A DNA stretch of 29,478 bases from a virus: the IMG/VR virus record IMGVR_UViG_3300022221_000019, positions 1 to 29,478 of that record; one strand, 5' to 3'. Within the stretch, counting starts at the first letter, position 1, and each line of letters begins with the position of its first letter. Below are positions 1,167 through 29,145 of this stretch, piece after piece. A model generated the notes under the pieces. The model made no database searches. It was not told where the DNA came from and saw only the letters and a list, made by a program, of their open reading frames with translations. The translations under genes were made by a program, and so were the position numbers.

Positions 1167-3710
1167 TCAATCAAATATTTTGGTTTGTCCACGTTCACGC
1201 ATCATTTTTCTTAATCTCTTTTTCCTTTTTGTATCGGCACTATCTAAAAGTGATTCAAGAAATAATGTATCCAATACTGGACGCATAATAAAGTGGTTTT
1301 GAAATGGAACGTGATTTACAAGTGTCTTAGCATCTTTCCATTTAAGTCTTCCCTGCTTATCACCAAATGCTGTGGCTTTTAATTTTGTCATAAGTTTTGC
1401 CATATCATCTACTGTTCCTAAAGCCGGTCCTGCTACGGATGATACAAATGTTCCATACTTGTTATCCACTGCTTGAGATAATAAATCACCGTATAGTCCA
1501 CCTGCGCCGCCTTTAATGAAAGCTTCTTTCCATGTGTCTGGTAGAGTCGGATCGCGTGGAGTTCTATTGTTTTTAATATCATTAAGACTTAGTGCGACAT
1601 AACCCATACCTGTTAGGCTTACCATCCACCCCATTACATTCATCATGCCTTGGTTCTTGTTTGGGTTAGCGTGGTAAAGACTTTGGATTGTGTCCTGCAT
1701 CTTGAAAGCAAATGATTTAAGCATTGCTAGAGTTCTTAAAAGTTCACCACTAGCTGAACCAGGTGGTAGACCTTGGTTAAGTAACGCTTGTTGTTTAAGT
1801 CCAGGTGTCGGTACACCATCGTTTGCGATATCGTTAAACATTGTATCGAGCTTTCTTCCTAGAAAGTCGCGCATTTCACCTTCAGATTTACCTAAGAATT
1901 GCGGATCATTCTTGCCTAGTTTTTGTCGTAATTCATTAATTATTTTAACATCAACTGTTTTAAAGGAATCTACATCTAACGTCTTTACTCCGTCTTTTAC
2001 ATCTGTGATAGCTGCCTTAAGTATTGGATAAAAGTCTTCAGTAAATCCTGAACGCTTAAGTGTTAGTGCGATTACATCATCAACTTTGTTGTCAAGAATT
2101 GCGCGCGATATATGATCGCTAAAAGCTTGAAGCATAATAGTTTTATGAAAAGCCGCTTGAACGCCGATTGGATTTATCCTTGTGTAGAAGTCCATCATCT
2201 TATTAATTGTTTTATTGGCAGTGCCTTCAACACCAACATGTCTAAACATTGCGCCCATACCTGTTTCAAGATAGACATTAAATCTAGCTGCTTTAGTTAC
2301 TAGTTCAGGGCTTTTGCCTGTTATGGCTTGCTTTAAAGCTTTAGGGCTTTCCGCTATGAAGTCAGTGACAATGTTAGTCCATGAAGCAAAGAAGTTCTTA
2401 TTTGTTTTAGCACTAAGCATAGCTGCCATTGAAGCAAGATCGGTTGAAGCTGTGATGGTTGAACCACCTAGTAAGCGCATATATTCCAAACTTCTCCACA
2501 TTGACATAAACTTAGCTGCGCTTTGGTTATGCGGTTTTGAAGCTGTACCATCCAAGTTCTTCCAAACGATATTCATAAATGAATGTGATCCCTTGGCGTG
2601 GGCATCACGTATTTTATTAGCTAGTGTTGTATTACCATCTGCATCTGCTTTTTTAATTGCTCGTTTAACAAGGGAGTCAAAAGTTCCTTTTGGGTTTGGT
2701 CCTAAAACTTCTCGTAATGCATTTTGCTTTGCACTTGTTTTAGCGGTAACTGCTAATTGCTCAAGGATGTTATGTCTTCCAAATTCAGAATTCCACTTTC
2801 CGGTAGCTCCTTTTTTGAAAACGAATTTTCTTGAACGCGTAGCCCTTGCTTCGAGCGAGCTTCTTGATGAAAGATCAAGCATACCAATATCCATTAAGCC
2901 TTTAGTTAAATCACCTTCGATTATGTTCTTAACTGTTTTATCTAGGATTTTATCAATCTCTTTAGCCGATAGACCTGGGAATGTTTCATCAAGATCAATT
3001 GATTCTTTTAAAAGTTCTTTAGCGCGCGTAGGATTAGTCGCCATTTTTTCTGCATCATAAGAGCGCATAACATAATTATCTTGGTATCCTAAATCAAAAC
3101 CTGCTTTGCGTTTTTCCATGTACATGAAGTCGTTAAACTTTTTAACTTTCTTAGCTATCTCGATCATTTCAAGATCATATTTATTTCTAGCGTTTTCTGT
3201 TCCCATTTCGATAATTTCAGCTATCTTTATCTGTGCGTCTACGCCGCCTTTGGTTAGATAATTTTCTTCAGCTTTAGTAAATAATTGATCAACATAAGAT
3301 TGATATCTATCAGAGTTAACATCTCTAATGTGTCCTACAGAATGTGTTGCATTCTCTACTGACTTCTTTGTTCCAACAAGAATTGATTCCAATCCCTCTA
3401 GTGAATCTTTAAAACCTTCTTGGTGGATATGTCCTTCAAAGCGTGTTGCATATTGCTGTACTTGTACTTTTTCTAATTTCTTTTTCCATGATTCTCTACG
3501 GTGATTATTTAAAATCTCAAGTGCTTTGGTTCTAAACACTTCTGGATCATTAACCTTTTCAAGTAGTGCTTGAAGTTCATCGCCCATTTCATCTACGAGT
3601 TTTTCATTAATTTCTTGTGAAGCTCTATCCAGTATTTCTTGTTCTTCAGCATAAAGTTTTTTTAAACTTTCAGGTAGGCTTTCTTTTACTAATCGTTTGC
3701 ATTCACTCAT
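1167..3710 (-). CDS. Large internal virion protein (T7 gp16-like position)
   Basis: An 847-residue protein. I take the ATG at 3710, which shares TAATG with the stop of the preceding gene and has AAAGG 7 nt upstream; an in-frame ATG at 3731 would add seven residues. The first ~200 residues are charged and helical, the middle (about 400-480) has small hydrophobic stretches, and the C-terminal third has a Gly-rich segment (FIKGGAGGLYGDLLSQA) and a basic tail ending near RKMMRERGQTKIFD. This type of C-terminus recurs in ejection proteins of podoviruses. Order after the gp15-like and 574-residue proteins fits the T7 gp16 slot, the protein thought to span the envelope during DNA entry. Unlike T7 gp16, no lytic transglycosylase motif is visible. 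The exact family is inferred. Confidence 0.72.
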   Translation of the reverse strand: MSECKRLVKESLPESLKKLYAEEQEILDRASQEINEKLVDEMGDELQALLEKVNDPEVFRTKALEILNNHRRESWKKKLEKVQVQQYATRFEGHIHQEGFKDSLEGLESILVGTKKSVENATHSVGHIRDVNSDRYQSYVDQLFTKAEENYLTKGGVDAQIKIAEIIEMGTENARNKYDLEMIEIAKKVKKFNDFMYMEKRKAGFDLGYQDNYVMRSYDAEKMATNPTRAKELLKESIDLDETFPGLSAKEIDKILDKTVKNIIEGDLTKGLMDIGMLDLSSRSSLEARATRSRKFVFKKGATGKWNSEFGRHNILEQLAVTAKTSAKQNALREVLGPNPKGTFDSLVKRAIKKADADGNTTLANKIRDAHAKGSHSFMNIVWKNLDGTASKPHNQSAAKFMSMWRSLEYMRLLGGSTITASTDLASMAAMLSAKTNKNFFASWTNIVTDFIAESPKALKQAITGKSPELVTKAARFNVYLETGMGAMFRHVGVEGTANKTINKMMDFYTRINPIGVQAAFHKTIMLQAFSDHISRAILDNKVDDVIALTLKRSGFTEDFYPILKAAITDVKDGVKTLDVDSFKTVDVKIINELRQKLGKNDPQFLGKSEGEMRDFLGRKLDTMFNDIANDGVPTPGLKQQALLNQGLPPGSASGELLRTLAMLKSFAFKMQDTIQSLYHANPNKNQGMMNVMGWMVSLTGMGYVALSLNDIKNNRTPRDPTLPDTWKEAFIKGGAGGLYGDLLSQAVDNKYGTFVSSVAGPALGTVDDMAKLMTKLKATAFGDKQGRLKWKDAKTLVNHVPFQNHFIMRPVLDTLFLESLLDSADTKRKKRLRKMMRERGQTKIFD

Positions 3711-5434
3711 TATTTGCCTTTTAGAAAACAATTCTTTAAAGTTTGAAAAATTGTATTCTTGCCTTTCATCATTTCTTCTTCAATTTCAATTTCACGTAAA
3801 GCTAATTCATCGGCTTCATCTGCCATACCTGTTTCAACTAACTCTCTTAGATTGGCTTCTTCATTCTTTACTTGTTCAATTACTGCACGATCAAAATCTT
3901 CTGCTTTAAGATCAGGTGTCTCATCAATATCTTTTTGAGAATGTTCATTAAACATAATGTCATTTTCTTTTTTATTAACCATATCATCTGCTGATCCCCT
4001 AATCATTTCTTGATCAGGTTTTGGTTGTGCTTTACTATCTGCTTTAAAACTATCTGAATGTTTCAAATTACCTTCATTATAAATATAAGCATGGTTAGCT
4101 GCACCATCTTCAGAATAAATAACTCCATTGTATCCTTGTGTGTTGATATCGTCGTGTATGTTTTTAAGTATTGCGTTTACATCATCCCCATTTAATTCAG
4201 CAACGGTTTTAACATTTTCAATTCCTTCTCTTAAAGTTTTAGCATCTAAAAATGCTTCAGTGTATTCGGGATTAAATTTATTTATTGTATCTTTTATTTT
4301 AGGAATTACAGGTGAATCAAAGCCTGTATCGATATTTAAAAGGTTTGCTTCATGTAGGTTGATCTCATGAATGCCGCCAACTGTGTCCTGTAATGTATCA
4401 TTTGCTAGTTGGTTAGCAAGGTTTGGGTTATCTGTGATGTGTGTGCCTTCATTGCCCATAAAGTCACCTACTACGTGGTGATCACCATACTCGACGGTTC
4501 CTTTTTTCTGAACAGTTGAAACATAAAATTTCTGGTTAGGAAGATCAACGTCTTCTAGTTTGGTATACTTGTAACCAGCTCTGATTGATCCATGTGGTAC
4601 ATTTGATACACCATATAGATGGTTTTTTCTAAGCTCAATTATTGCTGAAAGGTCCGGCTTCTTCCCTGAAGCTACTTGACCAATAACAGACTTTATAGCT
4701 TGTCCCATCCACGGAGCATTGTCGGCAACATACTTTCCACCTTTTTTTAAGCCAAAAGCTGCGCCTGGAAAAACTACCCCACCACCGACTACTGAAATAA
4801 GTGCGTCATTAATGGTATAATCTTCCTGCATTCGCTCACTACTTGACATGAAGTAAGGTTCAAGTGCTGCGTTCGCCGCTACGCCTTCAACTACGCTTCT
4901 TGTTAAATTTCTTGATTCTAATAAATCACTTGTACGCTTAGCTATCTTTGTTGCTCGATATCCTAGCTTTCCTGATTTAGCTCCCCACTTAGCTGCTGTG
5001 CCTAGTCCACCTGTAGCTAATCCAAGTAATACATCCGCTCCTGCTTCGATTGGATCAGTAGCGTGAGCTGCTAAGCCACCTAACAAAGAAATTCCAAACG
5101 CATCTGATTTTCCATGATTAGAGATTATTCCCATCAATCGCTTCTTTTCTTTTGCTTCTTCATTAAGTTCATTCGCAAATAAATATGATGTAGGTTTTGT
5201 AAAAGGTTTTTCTACATCCGTAAATAACTCGTTAAGTTCTTCAGGTGAAGATAGACCATGTGGATCATTGGAAGCTAGTTCTTCTAAGTGATCTTCTTGG
5301 TATTGGCGTGAAGTGAATATATCCTTCATACCTAATTCAAAAGCTGCATCTAACCTTTCAGTGATATTATATTCAGGCGCAGCAGTTTCTACTGGTATTG
5401 GAGTTTCTAAAAGCATTGCTGTACGTGCGCCCAT
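3710..5434 (-). CDS. Internal virion protein with ADP-ribosyltransferase-like domain
   Basis: A 574-residue protein; its start shares TAATG with the upstream stop and has AAGGAG in front. Residues 1-110 are acidic. Hydrophobic Gly/Ala-rich segments lie at about 112-145 and 194-228, as in membrane-penetrating ejection proteins. Residues ~300-465 have the layout of the ART found in phage polyvalent proteins: FYVST (303-307) in the position of the usual YHGT, a GNEGTHITDNPNLANQLA stretch (327-344), and a late GYNGVIYSEDGAANHAYIYN stretch (434-453), like the family's GYDGIVY...SYIVF. The usual His of the first motif appears to be Val, so activity is uncertain. The C-terminus is a highly charged helix. 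It lies between the gp15-like and gp16-like genes, which suggests ejection into the host with the DNA. The ART call is pattern-based. Confidence 0.65.
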   Translation of the reverse strand: MGARTAMLLETPIPVETAAPEYNITERLDAAFELGMKDIFTSRQYQEDHLEELASNDPHGLSSPEELNELFTDVEKPFTKPTSYLFANELNEEAKEKKRLMGIISNHGKSDAFGISLLGGLAAHATDPIEAGADVLLGLATGGLGTAAKWGAKSGKLGYRATKIAKRTSDLLESRNLTRSVVEGVAANAALEPYFMSSSERMQEDYTINDALISVVGGGVVFPGAAFGLKKGGKYVADNAPWMGQAIKSVIGQVASGKKPDLSAIIELRKNHLYGVSNVPHGSIRAGYKYTKLEDVDLPNQKFYVSTVQKKGTVEYGDHHVVGDFMGNEGTHITDNPNLANQLANDTLQDTVGGIHEINLHEANLLNIDTGFDSPVIPKIKDTINKFNPEYTEAFLDAKTLREGIENVKTVAELNGDDVNAILKNIHDDINTQGYNGVIYSEDGAANHAYIYNEGNLKHSDSFKADSKAQPKPDQEMIRGSADDMVNKKENDIMFNEHSQKDIDETPDLKAEDFDRAVIEQVKNEEANLRELVETGMADEADELALREIEIEEEMMKGKNTIFQTLKNCFLKGK

Positions 5435-17993: not shown

Positions 17994-18632
17994 TTAGAAT
18001 TTGGGTTCAGGGATTGGTCTATTCTTTGATTTTTTAATTACCTTAGCTATTAAAGACTTGGAACAACCTATCTGTGCCGCAATTTGATCATATGTGTGGT
18101 TTTTATGGTGCAATGCCAGGATAGCTTTATGTTCATATTTCTTCTTTGGACCTATTTTAACACCATTTGCTTTAGCGTTTGCTAAACCATCTTTAACTCT
18201 ATCGGCTATAAGTTCGCGCTCAAATTCACCAATTGCTCCCATGATGTTAAGCATTAATCTTCCTTCTTTGGTGGTGGTGTTAATATTTTCTTTTACGGAT
18301 ACCATGTTGACCCCTATACGTCTAAAGTGATCTGTGAAGGATATTAAATGCTTTAGTGATCTAGCTATTCTGGAAAATGAATATGTCACCACAGTAGGCA
18401 TTGCACCGGTTCCAGGGTGCCTTAATGTTTCTATGGCATCCATCATCTCGCCTAGTCCTTTTCGATTTTCCTTGGCACCAGAAACTCCTTCATCCTCGTA
18501 ATATACGAACCTACTGTTTTCGTCGGTGTGTCCAAGATTTTCTAAGTGCTGTAAGATTGCGTGTGTTTGAGTTTCAATCCCATTGGATTGGTTTTTTGTT
18601 GAAGTTCTTAGGTAAATAAAAAATGTTTTCAT
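17994..18632 (-). CDS. Small serine recombinase (resolvase/invertase family)
   Basis: A 212-residue protein of resolvase/invertase size. The catalytic N-terminal domain has YLRTSTKNQ (7-15) with nucleophile Ser 11, an acidic YYEDEGVSGAKENRKGL segment (44-60), and SFSRIARS (85-92) with the family's catalytic arginines. The long E helix (FERELIADRVKDGLANAK, 137-154) and a C-terminal helix-turn-helix (HTYDQIAAQIGCSKSLIAKV, 179-198) follow. It cuts and exchanges DNA at short crossover sites. It has its own promoter, AAGGAG ribosome site and terminator. The lack of a large C-terminal domain argues against a phage large serine integrase. It may resolve multimers, invert a segment, or act in lysogeny; nearby inverted repeats are candidate sites. 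Confidence 0.92.
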   Translation of the reverse strand: MKTFFIYLRTSTKNQSNGIETQTHAILQHLENLGHTDENSRFVYYEDEGVSGAKENRKGLGEMMDAIETLRHPGTGAMPTVVTYSFSRIARSLKHLISFTDHFRRIGVNMVSVKENINTTTKEGRLMLNIMGAIGEFERELIADRVKDGLANAKANGVKIGPKKKYEHKAILALHHKNHTYDQIAAQIGCSKSLIAKVIKKSKNRPIPEPKF

Positions 18633-19687: not shown

Positions 19688-20620
19688 ATGACTAAGAAAA
19701 AAACAAGAACTAAAGTAATTGGAAAAAAGCCCAACTCTTATGAGAAAGTAACCGACGCAATAGTTGAATCATTACAGCTAGGTGATATCCCTTGGAATAG
19801 CCCATACATTAGACGCTATCCGCAAAACTTCACTAAAGGAAACATTTATCGTGGCATAAACTATTTTCTACTTGGCATGGACGACGCGCTTTATCAATCC
19901 TATGCAACTTTCAACCAAATTAAAAACAATGGTGGAAAAGTAAATAAAGGCGCAAAATCTCGGTTGGTGTATTTCTTCAAAATGTTAGAAATTGAGACTA
20001 AGCAAAAACTTAAAAGTACAGGCGAAACAATTAAAAAAGATATTCCGTTCCTTAGAACTTATAACGTCTTTAAACTTGAAGATACTAACCTCGATCCGTC
20101 TTTATTCATTGAAATTGGTGACGCTGCTAATGAAGACAAAAAAGAAGTACACCAAAAAATTGATATTGCATTAGAGCTATTTTTCACTAACACCACACTA
20201 ACTCAAAAACTTGGTGGCAAGTGTGGTACATACTCACCAATGAGTGATTGTGTTAGAATTCCAGACACAACAAATTATAAAAACTTGGATTCGCGCTATT
20301 CAACTATTTTCCATGAGCTAGTGCATGCTACTGGGCATGAGTCAAGGCTTAACCGTGATCTTAAAGGCTTTGACATTGACAAGCATTCATATAGCCTTGA
20401 GGAACTTGTAGCGGAAATGGGCGCGGCTATTCTATGCACTCATTTTGGGATTGCAAGTGAAAAGCTTATTGAAAATAAAAAAGCATACTGTCAATCGTGG
20501 GCAAAATATCTAAATAGCGATACTAAGCTTGCTTATAAAGCAGCAAGTAAAGCGCAAAAAGCGGTTGACTTTATTTTGGAAAGAATGAATGAACTTGAAA
20601 CAACTAAAAAGGCGGCATAA
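19688..20620 (+). CDS. ardC: ArdC-type anti-restriction protein (ssDNA-binding plus zincin domain)
   Basis: A 310-residue protein; AGAGG lies 7 nt upstream of the ATG. Residues ~15-145 form the ArdC N-terminal ssDNA-binding domain: YEKVTDAIVESLQLGDIPWN, a GNIYRGINYFLL segment, YATFNQIKNNGGKVNKGAK and YNVFKLE. Residues ~190-300 are the metallopeptidase domain with FHELVHATGHESRL (208-221), whose zinc ligands are His 209 and His 213 with catalytic Glu 210, and the EELVAEMGAAIL helix (238-249) that supplies the third ligand. Such proteins occur on conjugative plasmids and phages and protect entering DNA from restriction; ArdC of plasmid pSa is the model. Expression as an early gene from the nearby promoter fits. 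Length matches the family. Confidence 0.9.
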   Translation: MTKKKTRTKVIGKKPNSYEKVTDAIVESLQLGDIPWNSPYIRRYPQNFTKGNIYRGINYFLLGMDDALYQSYATFNQIKNNGGKVNKGAKSRLVYFFKMLEIETKQKLKSTGETIKKDIPFLRTYNVFKLEDTNLDPSLFIEIGDAANEDKKEVHQKIDIALELFFTNTTLTQKLGGKCGTYSPMSDCVRIPDTTNYKNLDSRYSTIFHELVHATGHESRLNRDLKGFDIDKHSYSLEELVAEMGAAILCTHFGIASEKLIENKKAYCQSWAKYLNSDTKLAYKAASKAQKAVDFILERMNELETTKKAA

Positions 20621-22413: not shown

Positions 22414-22758
22414 CTATGTTTCGGATTGGGAAATTTCGGGATCACCAAAGTCTTTGTACTGCTTTTTAAGATAAAAGGTAAATGCTTCATGAAATAATTT
22501 AGCAAACATTTCTACCACGATTTCTTCAATATCCAGGGTAAAACCTGGCATTTGACGCAAACCGCACCGGCAACACAGTGCATGTCCCATCTCATGAAGC
22601 AGGGTTTCTTTGAATAATTCAGGCATTTTCTTTGAACATATGGACGAGTTTATGATGATTTTATCACCGCTAAACTCACCACATATACCTTCATCAAGTG
22701 AAGCATGGAATACAGGATATAATTTACCTAGAACTGGTAGATACATTAATAATTTCAT
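22414..22758 (-). CDS. HExxH metallopeptidase-like protein
   Basis: A 114-residue protein with TLLHEMGHALCCRCG (52-66): His 55, Glu 56 and His 59 give the HExxH zincin motif, and the downstream DIEEIVVEMFAKLF helix (76-89) can supply the third acidic ligand, as in IrrE/ImmA-type or SprT-like proteins. Four Cys lie around the motif (26, 41, 62-65). AGGAG lies 6-7 nt upstream, and the ATG overlaps the stop of a small secreted peptide gene (ATGA). No helix-turn-helix is fused. The substrate is unknown: repressor cleavage, as by ImmA, or a phage protein-processing role are both possible. Confidence 0.75.
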   Translation of the reverse strand: MKLLMYLPVLGKLYPVFHASLDEGICGEFSGDKIIINSSICSKKMPELFKETLLHEMGHALCCRCGLRQMPGFTLDIEEIVVEMFAKLFHEAFTFYLKKQYKDFGDPEISQSET

Positions 22759-23021: not shown

Positions 23022-23183
23022 CTAGCAGATTTTTAATTTCTTACATTTTTTAGTGACAAAGATATAAGCCCTAAAAGCAATCTCATAGGCTAAACTACCA
23101 TCATCTAAATCAGCTATTTTAAGAGCTAACTTTTTTCTAGTTTCTTTGATTCTGCGCAGGTGTTCTAGATTAATCGACTTCAT
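23022..23183 (-). CDS. 53-residue basic protein downstream of the receiver-domain gene
   Basis: A Lys/Arg-rich helical protein (HLRRIKETRKKLALKIADLD then FVTKKCKKLKIC). AAGGAGA lies 8 nt upstream of the ATG at 23183, and the gene overlaps the receiver-domain gene by 14 nt, so the two are in one operon. The acidic D-D turn between two basic helices recalls small phage DNA-binding proteins, but no family is recognised. It could be the output partner of the receiver. Confidence 0.6.
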   Translation of the reverse strand: MKSINLEHLRRIKETRKKLALKIADLDDGSLAYEIAFRAYIFVTKKCKKLKIC

Positions 23184-23481
23184 GAATTAACTCTCCTTGG
23201 TGTAAGTTTGTCATTATCTCAGCAAGCTTGTAGATGTCATAAGGCTTTCTAAAGTCCACAACGTCCAAAGGATTGAGGCTACCGCTGTGAGTAAAATAAA
23301 GTACTCCCTTTTCTTTTTTCGCATTTCCTACCCCTATTATATCGTGTATAACTATGTCACCTGCCTTGGCTTCACATTCTTTAAAGTTTTTACATAGCTT
23401 AAAATAATCGCATCCAACGTCTTTAAAGATATAATCCATTAAGGTTAAAATCTCTGGTTCATCGTCTATTATCCAAATCAT
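23170..23481 (-). CDS. Stand-alone response-regulator receiver (CheY-like) domain
   Basis: A 103-residue protein; the ATG at 23481 has AGGGGG 5 nt upstream, better than the in-frame ATG at 23514 inside the preceding gene. It shows the REC order: IWIIDDEPEILTLM (2-15) with the acidic pocket Asp 6, Asp 7, Glu 8; DIVIHDI (42-48) with phospho-acceptor Asp 47; LYFTHSG (61-67) with the Thr/Ser position; and DFRKPYDIYKLAEI (76-89) with Lys 79-Pro 80. All key residues are present, so phosphorylation is plausible. No output domain is fused. Single-domain receivers are rare in phages; it may intercept a host signalling relay, or act on the neighbouring 53-residue or RHH-like protein. Confidence 0.75.
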   Translation of the reverse strand: MIWIIDDEPEILTLMDYIFKDVGCDYFKLCKNFKECEAKAGDIVIHDIIGVGNAKKEKGVLYFTHSGSLNPLDVVDFRKPYDIYKLAEIMTNLHQGELIHEVD

Positions 23482-23494
23482 GTTACCCCCTATT

Positions 23495-23695
23495 CTATTT
23501 CTTTTTCGTATCACTATCTATAAAACCTAACTTAAGTAGTTCATTAATTTTTTCATCTAAAACATTTTGGACATTTACATAGCCTTTCTTATGTAATTCT
23601 CTTAACACTTTCTTATTAATTCGCACTGATTTAACTAAATCTTTGGTTAAATCAGTTACTTTCATTTCATCTTCTTTCACTTTTGTATCTTCCAT
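23495..23695 (-). CDS. Ribbon-helix-helix-like DNA-binding regulator
   Basis: A 66-residue protein; an AGGATGG element lies 7 nt before the ATG. Residues ~22-58 (VKSVRINKKVLRELHKKGYV then NVQNVLDEKINELLKLGF) fit a ribbon-helix-helix: a short strand with alternating basic/polar residues, a helix, a Gly turn and a second helix. Such proteins bind tandem palindromes as dimers, commonly their own promoter. Three ACTAC-N6-GTAGT sites lie directly upstream, one including the ribosome site. It is followed after 13 nt by the receiver-domain gene. The family is inferred from the pattern; an antitoxin-like protein is the main alternative. Confidence 0.6.
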   Translation of the reverse strand: MEDTKVKEDEMKVTDLTKDLVKSVRINKKVLRELHKKGYVNVQNVLDEKINELLKLGFIDSDTKKK

Positions 23696-28196: not shown

Positions 28197-28205
28197 TGAT
28201 CCCTT
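28197..28205 (-). promoter_or_regulatory. Primase ribosome site, target-like AAGGGATCA
   Basis: AAGGGATCA on the minus strand lies 3 nt before the primase ATG. It is the exact complement of bases 28340-28348 in the loop of the candidate RNA. Confidence 0.6.
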
Positions 28206-28206
28206 C

Positions 28207-28216
28207 TCTTAGTGTA
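28207..28216 (-). promoter_or_regulatory. TACACTAAGA motif, primase copy
   Basis: Exact 10-mer 14 nt upstream of the primase start. It lies 31 nt downstream of a consensus TTGACA (28253-28248 on the minus strand), which itself has a weak -10 at normal spacing. Confidence 0.5.
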
Positions 28217-28258
28217 TGATTTTTAGGATGTAGAAAAATATATTAATTGTCAAGTCAC

Positions 28259-28287
28259 TTGATTTTTTTACATTTTTGCTTTATAAT
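28259..28287 (+). promoter_or_regulatory. Sigma-70-type promoter of the candidate small RNA
   Basis: TTGATT (28259-28264), 17-nt spacer, perfect TATAAT (28282-28287); predicted start near 28295. No start codon with a ribosome site lies between it and the terminator. Confidence 0.7.
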
Positions 28288-28294
28288 ATAGTCT

Positions 28295-28362
28295 AAATTG
28301 TCTTTTTCACAGACAAACTCTTTGGTGCCGCCTTTAGCTTGATCCCTTGGGCGGCATTTTTT
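28295..28362 (+). ncRNA. Candidate antisense/regulatory small RNA
   Basis: A ~68-nt RNA is predicted between a good promoter and a terminator. It would have two hairpins: TTGTCT/AGACAA (28298-28316) and the terminator TGCCGCC/GGCGGCA (28326-28356). The 17-nt terminator loop contains TTGATCCCTTG, complementary over 11 bases to the ribosome site of the plus-strand gene at 28416 (28403-28413) and over 9 bases to that of primase (28197-28205). It resembles small RNAs controlling replication in P4 (CI RNA) and plasmids. No expression evidence is available. Confidence 0.55.
28326..28362 (+). terminator. Terminator of the candidate RNA
   Basis: TGCCGCC pairs with GGCGGCA (7 GC-rich base pairs) and is followed by six T residues. 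There is no plus-strand gene upstream for it to end, which supports a separate short transcript. Confidence 0.8.
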
Positions 28363-28364
28363 AT

Positions 28365-28393
28365 TTGACATTGCATTTTCCATTTCCTATTGT
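28365..28393 (+). promoter_or_regulatory. Promoter of the right-hand plus-strand operon
   Basis: Consensus TTGACA (28365-28370), 17-nt spacer and TATTGT (28388-28393), 4 of 6 matches. It starts directly after the terminator T-tract and gives a short leader of ~15 nt that holds the CAAGGGATCAA ribosome site. Confidence 0.6.
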
Positions 28394-28415
28394 TGAAGAA
28401 CACAAGGGATCAATC

Positions 28416-28562
28416 ATGCGAATTAAAGAAATAAATAACGAATTATATTATTGGGACCAATTTCAAAAGAAGTGGTTAGAGTTTATTGGTAGCAAAGCTG
28501 AGAAGCTATACCATGAAACTGAAGAACTAGTACACAAAGAGAGAGAAGAAGATGAAGATTAA
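28416..28562 (+). CDS. 48-residue acidic protein at the head of the right-hand operon
   Basis: Start at 28416, with AAGGG 7 nt upstream inside CAAGGGATCAA; an in-frame ATG at 28347 lies within the terminator and is rejected. The peptide starts with a basic/aromatic part (MRIKEINNELYYWDQFQKKW) and ends in an acidic helix (ETEELVHKEREEDED). It overlaps the metzincin-like gene by 11 nt. No family is recognised. It is probably translated together with the next gene and controlled by the candidate RNA. Confidence 0.6.
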   Translation: MRIKEINNELYYWDQFQKKWLEFIGSKAEKLYHETEELVHKEREEDED

Positions 28563-29145
28563 GGTAGAACCTACATTTGTAAAAACTCACTACACAAACA
28601 TAAACCACCAAATGACAGCGGAAGCTAAGATTGAAAGCATCTTAGAGCTAGTTGAGATGGTATTTAATTCAAATGAGCTGGGTGATTTTATTTTATATCA
28701 CGGCTACTATGTTAAACCATGGTTTAGAAAACGCAGATGGGTTCAAGGTTTTAAGCAAACCAAAAACACAAATTACTGGCACTGGACAAATTTCATGGGC
28801 GGTGGTGAGCGTAACTCTCATGAAGATAATATATGGCAGGTCCGCTTAAACATTTATTATAGAAAAGATAATGTTAAAGGCTTTACCAATCCACCAAGTC
28901 CCTTCATTAATAGTAACTCTTATTATTTTGATATATTAAATATGTACAATTATGACATTACAGCTATCACTGAATTTGTTGAGAATTTAACCCATGAATA
29001 TTGTCACCTGGTGGGAATGCATCACAGTTTTTGGTGGAAGAAATGGCAATGGAATGACACAGCTCCATATGCTATCGGAAGAAAGGCAGCGGAAATAGCT
29101 GAAGCATTTATAATGACTAATGAATGGGAGCTTAGAGAGTGGTGA
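28552..29145 (+). CDS. Metzincin-like zinc metallopeptidase
   Basis: A 197-residue protein. Residues 148-158 read HEYCHLVGMHH, an exact HExxHxxGxxH: zinc ligands His 148, His 152 and His 158 with catalytic Glu 149 and the metzincin Gly 155. There is no signal peptide, so it acts in the cytoplasm or virion. The N-terminal half is rich in Trp/Tyr (YYVKPWFRKRRWV, then NYWHWTNFMGGG). It overlaps the genes on both sides. The methionine turn of true metzincins is not clear, although MTNEW near residue 189 is a candidate. Phage proteins of this type are poorly known; the substrate cannot be inferred. Confidence 0.75.
   Translation: MKIKVEPTFVKTHYTNINHQMTAEAKIESILELVEMVFNSNELGDFILYHGYYVKPWFRKRRWVQGFKQTKNTNYWHWTNFMGGGERNSHEDNIWQVRLNIYYRKDNVKGFTNPPSPFINSNSYYFDILNMYNYDITAITEFVENLTHEYCHLVGMHHSFWWKKWQWNDTAPYAIGRKAAEIAEAFIMTNEWELREW

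Follow-up and report, generated by a model that had tools for sequence, protein, structure and literature searches.

Genes and features of the primase locus

The window analyzed here is a complete IMG/VR record, a linear phage fragment of 29,478 bases, whose terminase resembles those of HTVC010P-type pelagiphages (46-48% identity). It contains a D5-type primase gene on the minus strand, separated by a 222-base gap from a plus-strand operon in which a 48-aa gene is followed by a 197-aa gene, a 59-aa gene, and a SNF2-like helicase gene truncated by the end of the record. The gap holds a candidate small RNA (Table 1). The promoter, two hairpins, and T6 terminator that an earlier note on this DNA had read from the letters, with no gene between them, were all recovered at the same positions.

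Table 1. Features of the primase/plus-operon region of the window.
Feature	Position	Strand	Basis
D5-type primase/helicase, 775 aa	25866-28193	-	phrog_864 DNA primase, E 1.4e-78; Pfam D5_N
Primase ATG	28193	-	start codon
Primase ribosome site AAGGGATCA, target 1	28197-28205	-	9 base pairs with the loop
Small-RNA promoter-like site, TTGATT-17-TATAAT	28259-28287	+	10/12 consensus matches; alone not above chance
Primase promoter-like site, GTGAAA-16-TATTAT	28283-28310	-	9/12 consensus matches; weak
Candidate small RNA, about 68 nt, two hairpins, no ORF	28295-28362	+	promoter-like site 5', terminator 3'; fold more stable than shuffles, z = -3.1
5' hairpin of the RNA	about 28298-28316	+	minimum-energy fold
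Intrinsic terminator, stem GCCGCC/GGCGGC extended, T6 tail	28324-28362 (hairpin 28324-28358, T6 28357-28362)	+	fold and sequence
Anti-Shine-Dalgarno loop UUGAUCCCUUG / TTGATCCCTTG, pairing seed	28339-28349	+	predicted mean unpaired probability 0.80
Plus-operon promoter-like site, TTGACA-17-TATTGT	28365-28393	+	10/12 consensus matches
Plus-operon ribosome site CAAGGGATCAA, target 2	28403-28413	+	11/11 complementary to the loop
Plus-operon gene 1, 48 aa, no known family	28416-28562	+	ATG at 28416

The promoter-like sites of the primase and the small RNA are arranged back to back. The plus operon has a promoter-like site of its own directly past the terminator, and the candidate RNA can therefore be a separate unit. 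Promoter-like sites occurred in the window at the same frequency as in shuffled sequences, and as a group they were weak or no better than chance.

Several other genes of the window were also noted. The 197-aa protein of the plus operon (28552-29145, +) carries HEYCHLVGMHH, a zinc-metallopeptidase-like motif, and matched no family. A 114-aa protein with a HEMGH motif (22414-22758, -) is a second small peptidase-like protein, with a weak match to phrog_1233. Another 114-aa protein (23170-23514, -) shows by eye motifs like those of response-regulator receivers (IIDDEPEIL, a central D, and FRKPYD), and it gave no Pfam or PDB sequence match. An anti-restriction protein was encoded at 19688-20620 (+; phrog_7245, E 3e-68) and an invertase-type small serine recombinase at 17994-18632 (-; phrog_125, E 2e-47). 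The recombinase is a possible sign of a temperate or plasmid-like lifestyle.

Complementarity of the terminator loop to both ribosome sites

According to the earlier note, the terminator loop is exactly complementary to the ribosome site of the plus operon (11 nt) and complementary to 9 bases of the primase site; both matches were confirmed. The targets do not overlap the loop but lie 143 and 64 bases from it as separate copies, and the spacing from site to start codon is identical at both (AAGGGATCACCA-ATG and AAGGGATCAATC-ATG). When the 141 candidate starts of the record were ranked by the loop only, the plus gene came first and the primase second. This ranking and the comparison of loci below support, on computational grounds, the proposal in the same note that one RNA serves replication and the divergent operon, acting on the primase in trans. 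The loop-only ranking was chosen because the G+C-rich stem sequence dominates duplex energies computed over the whole intergenic region, by which the primase site of the window scored P 0.195. When the query was lengthened by the terminator stem, the two targets fell to ranks 4 and 29. Therefore, the specificity, and the claim with it, rests on the loop.

The complementarity between the loop and its targets in the window exceeds chance. Among random 17-nt loops of the same composition, 0.2% matched the primase site over 9 nt and 0.02% matched the plus site over 11 nt; 46 of 3,000,000 loops reached both lengths together. Ribosome sites are G- and A-rich, hence short matches are common, and an ordinary terminator with a C- and U-rich loop could come to resemble an anti-Shine-Dalgarno sequence. 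However, such a coincidence is very improbable in view of the random-loop count and of the recurrence of the same triad at loci L118 and L015, and probably at L014.

A second explanation confines the element to the plus operon. A read-through transcript would fold the loop onto the plus site as a cis-acting leader or attenuator, and the primase match would be a by-product of shared Shine-Dalgarno sequence. It is true that the RNA precedes the plus operon and shares its strand, and that the longest match in the window is to the plus site. However, a promoter-like site follows the terminator. Furthermore, the best target at L118 and L015 is the primase on the other strand (16 and 13 nt, respectively), which is beyond the reach of cis pairing. 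We consider this explanation improbable and favor a small RNA that acts on both flanking genes.

The same layout in distant phages

Close relatives of the window were not found in viral_contigs through either its primase or its second plus gene, and no DNA match to the window was obtained among named phages. A scan with a 17-mer pattern returned two matches, both chance occurrences inside unrelated genes. In an alignment-based search of viral contigs, primases of the same family, roughly 30-42% identical, were found at about 35 loci. About 20 of these loci have a divergent upstream gene (primases roughly 35-42% identical). The gene starts in the window and the compared loci are predictions, and the phages are uncultured.

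L118 gave the longest match. Its primase site GCGAGATCAAAAGGAG is matched exactly by the loop complement over 16 nt (rank 1/181). The hairpin has the stem CCCCGCACCA/TGGTGCGGGG, and its loop carries the GCGAGATCAAAAGGAG repeat, which reads as the complement on the opposite strand. The site of the divergent gene, GCGAGACAGAAGGAG, ranked 2/181, and GCGAGACAAAAGGAG, the site of another gene in the divergent operon, ranked 3/181. The T run of this first hairpin comes only after a 6-nt spacer, which counts against the case. A second hairpin follows it (3095-3153, minus strand) with nearly the same stem, GCCCGCACCA/TGGTGCGGGC, a different loop, and the ending TCTTTTT. This hairpin may serve to terminate the RNA, or it may be a further regulator with a different target.

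At L015, an opposite-strand terminator (stem GCCCTAGAA/TTCTAGGGC, T6) has a loop that is the complement of the primase site AAACCTGCGAGGG. The match is exact over 13 nt and extends to 17 contiguous pairs with one G-U (-34.5, rank 1/249), and a gene of the divergent operon with the site CTGCGGGGGGAAAA ranked 2/249. The minimum-energy fold of a longer transcript breaks up the loop hairpin, which counts against this case. L118 and L015 were both noticed through their primase matches, so only their second targets are unselected. No match to the window terminase was found at either locus, and the module thus occurs in different phage lineages.

L014 has a terminase related to that of the window (49%) and a helicase as its divergent gene. 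Its seed, UUUCCCAGGA, lies between two hairpins and pairs with the primase site TCCTGGGGAG over 10 pairs including two G-U (rank 2/243) and with the helicase site CTGGGAAA over 8 Watson-Crick pairs (rank 16/243). This locus is a probable but weaker case, with a moderate significance of P 0.05. Possible further cases are L119 and L035, where similar but imperfect triads occur and the seed lies immediately 5' of the terminator. An additional target of the L035 seed (CTGCCTTTTCCACAAG; with L134:3765) might be a 343-aa gene some 10 kb distant, whose ribosome site CTGTGGAAAAGGTGG also pairs with it. L037 and L019 were weak candidates and were not counted.

At L118, L015, and L014, the candidate RNA is positioned between the primase and the divergent operon on the strand opposite the primase. 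The earlier note had proposed looking in related phages for independent change of the loop and the ribosome sites. At L118 and L015, and less strongly at L014, loop or seed and targets differ wholly from those of the window, yet they stay complementary.

The layout was not general among primase loci. The element was absent from about 14 other divergent primase loci, and the layout was absent from 12 D5-type primase regions of named phage records, most of them co-directional; one of the 12 is an unannotated metagenomic clone. In G002, the nearest relative with both a related terminase and a related primase (40%), the upstream gene is co-directional and such an RNA is lacking. At L018, a co-directional relative, a hairpin (TGAGGGACCAT...ATGGTTCCTCA, about 3930-3985) sits directly in the primase leader, possibly as a different kind of leader control.

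Two screens and one shuffling test were applied across loci. An unbiased screen compared the loops of strong terminators with nearby starts (445 pairs, 83 loci, 735 kb). L015 (13 nt) came first and the window (9 nt) second, both to the primase, against a background in which most pairs shared 3-5 nt and the commonest match was 4 nt. A wider screen of perfect-stem hairpins placed L118 and L015 on top and L069 third; among about 4,000 hairpin-loop/start pairs, 21 matched over 8 nt and 10 over 9 nt. The double-target test asked how well one segment pairs with both flanking leaders compared to shuffles. The z values were -7.5 for L118, -3.3 for L119, -3.1 for the window, -2.3 for L035, and -1.8 for L014, and about 0 for most other divergent loci; the region limits of this test cut off the loop of L015. 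L016 reached -2.5 and was not counted; its seed is palindromic and lies near a promoter.

The third-ranked locus of the wider screen, L069, bears on an explanation at the DNA level, in which the three AAGGGATCA copies of the window are operator or origin repeats that bind a repressor or replication protein, and their placement in a loop and at ribosome sites is secondary. Short repeats beside a replication gene are a typical mark of operators and iterons. At L069 (4890-5180), TTGAATGGCA and TGCCAGACA recur in either orientation in an iteron-like array just past the primase gene, possibly a replication origin, and these repeats yield a 12-nt loop-to-start match. DNA repeats can therefore mimic the signal, and the operator explanation is retained. 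L015 also has a 22-nt direct repeat of 91% identity. However, the copies in the window, at L118, and at L015 fall exactly in an opposite-strand hairpin loop and on normally spaced Shine-Dalgarno sequences, there are no extra copies at promoters, and the distance between copies varies (143, 114, and 157). In the four strongest loci, five of six differences in the pairing core are A to G in the target and keep a G-U pair, which mildly favors RNA pairing. Repeats bound as DNA are thus an unlikely account of these loci, and pairing by an RNA loop is preferred.

Proposed control and comparison with known RNAs

We propose that the phage encodes an anti-Shine-Dalgarno RNA through which translation of two units is probably repressed: that of the primase, in trans, and that of the divergent operon. 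A short RNA would be transcribed between the two units and would stop at its own terminator. Its hairpin loop would pair with two Shine-Dalgarno regions, that of the primase mRNA and that of the gene heading the divergent operon. For the primase this contact would be in trans, since the RNA is read from the opposite strand and the two do not overlap. Pairing would cover both ribosome sites and block ribosome binding, and its position at Shine-Dalgarno sites favors a translational block. In this way, the RNA would restrain the replication primase and, with it, the divergent operon. The role might be copy-number control, timing, or upkeep of a quiet state in a resident phage; since RNA dose rises with copy number, the RNA could be a copy-number brake. 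What the analysis shows directly is the sequence, the fold, the ranking of targets across the record, and the complementarity kept between unrelated sequences; that the RNA is transcribed, pairs in the cell, and represses, and what purpose it serves, is our inference.

More tentatively, the loci may represent a recurrent class of phage modules for the control of replication. A single small RNA, placed between divergent operons, would have a loop that fits both flanking ribosome sites, and loop and sites would change together into a private code specific to each phage. This broader idea is possible but doubtful. If it is true, the private code could define superinfection immunity groups and copy number. 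It would be a simple, readable control code, in which one loop silences both arms and is kept while every letter changes. The layout would be recognizable in uncultured phages by sequence alone and would predict which phages repress each other. To our knowledge, control of replication genes has been described for only a few phage RNAs, all of them from model phages. No description of this arrangement was found in the literature searched.

Rfam gave no family at the gathering threshold, and no relevant weak match, in the window, L014, L015, L118, or L035. By mechanism, the nearest known RNAs are C4 and the C4-like RNAs; the target of C4 is antirepressor synthesis. In P1 and P7 immunity, C4 RNA is cut from its leader by RNase P and has three stem-loops; the second loop, a', provides specificity and the b' loop covers the ribosome binding site, with variable loop sequence and constant architecture (PMC5320573). 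The candidate RNA is likewise a small phage RNA predicted to act on phage mRNA in trans, with a loop complementary to the ribosome site of its target. Unlike C4 RNA, it has its own promoter-like site and terminator, a single seed, and the primase and divergent operon as targets, and it does not match the Rfam covariance model.

By role, the nearest known RNA is CI of the satellite phage P4, which holds down replication genes that include a primase. P4 CI RNA is a processing product of the transcript of its own target operon, and transcription termination results when it pairs with seqA and seqC (PMC4825925). Both would be phage RNAs that restrain replication genes through short complementary segments. 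However, the candidate RNA lies on the strand opposite the primase, without overlap, rather than in the leader of the replication operon, and its targets are Shine-Dalgarno sites. Thus, the analogy to P4 CI drawn in the earlier note fits the proposed role but not the predicted mechanism or the gene layout. The candidate RNA is a member of neither group. From its sequence it is best described as a putative variant within the phage antisense RNAs, with a promoter-like site and a terminator of its own, a position on the strand opposite the primase, and one loop that fits both arms.

The antisense RNAs by which plasmids restrict Rep synthesis, such as ColE2 RNAI, are encoded opposite their target and are fully complementary to it. 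They share with the proposed mechanism a loop contact that blocks translation of a replication protein, and a dose that can follow copy number. Unlike them, the candidate RNA has at least two predicted targets, does not overlap them, and is not transcribed from the opposite strand across the pairing region. The OOP RNA of lambda is cis-antisense to cII and leads to decay by RNase III (PMC12197685). It resembles the candidate as a short terminated RNA adjoining replication genes, but it lacks an anti-Shine-Dalgarno loop for two flanking operons. In common with trans-acting small RNAs of the bacterial type, the candidate RNA has a short seed complementary to the ribosome sites of non-overlapping genes, together with an intrinsic terminator.
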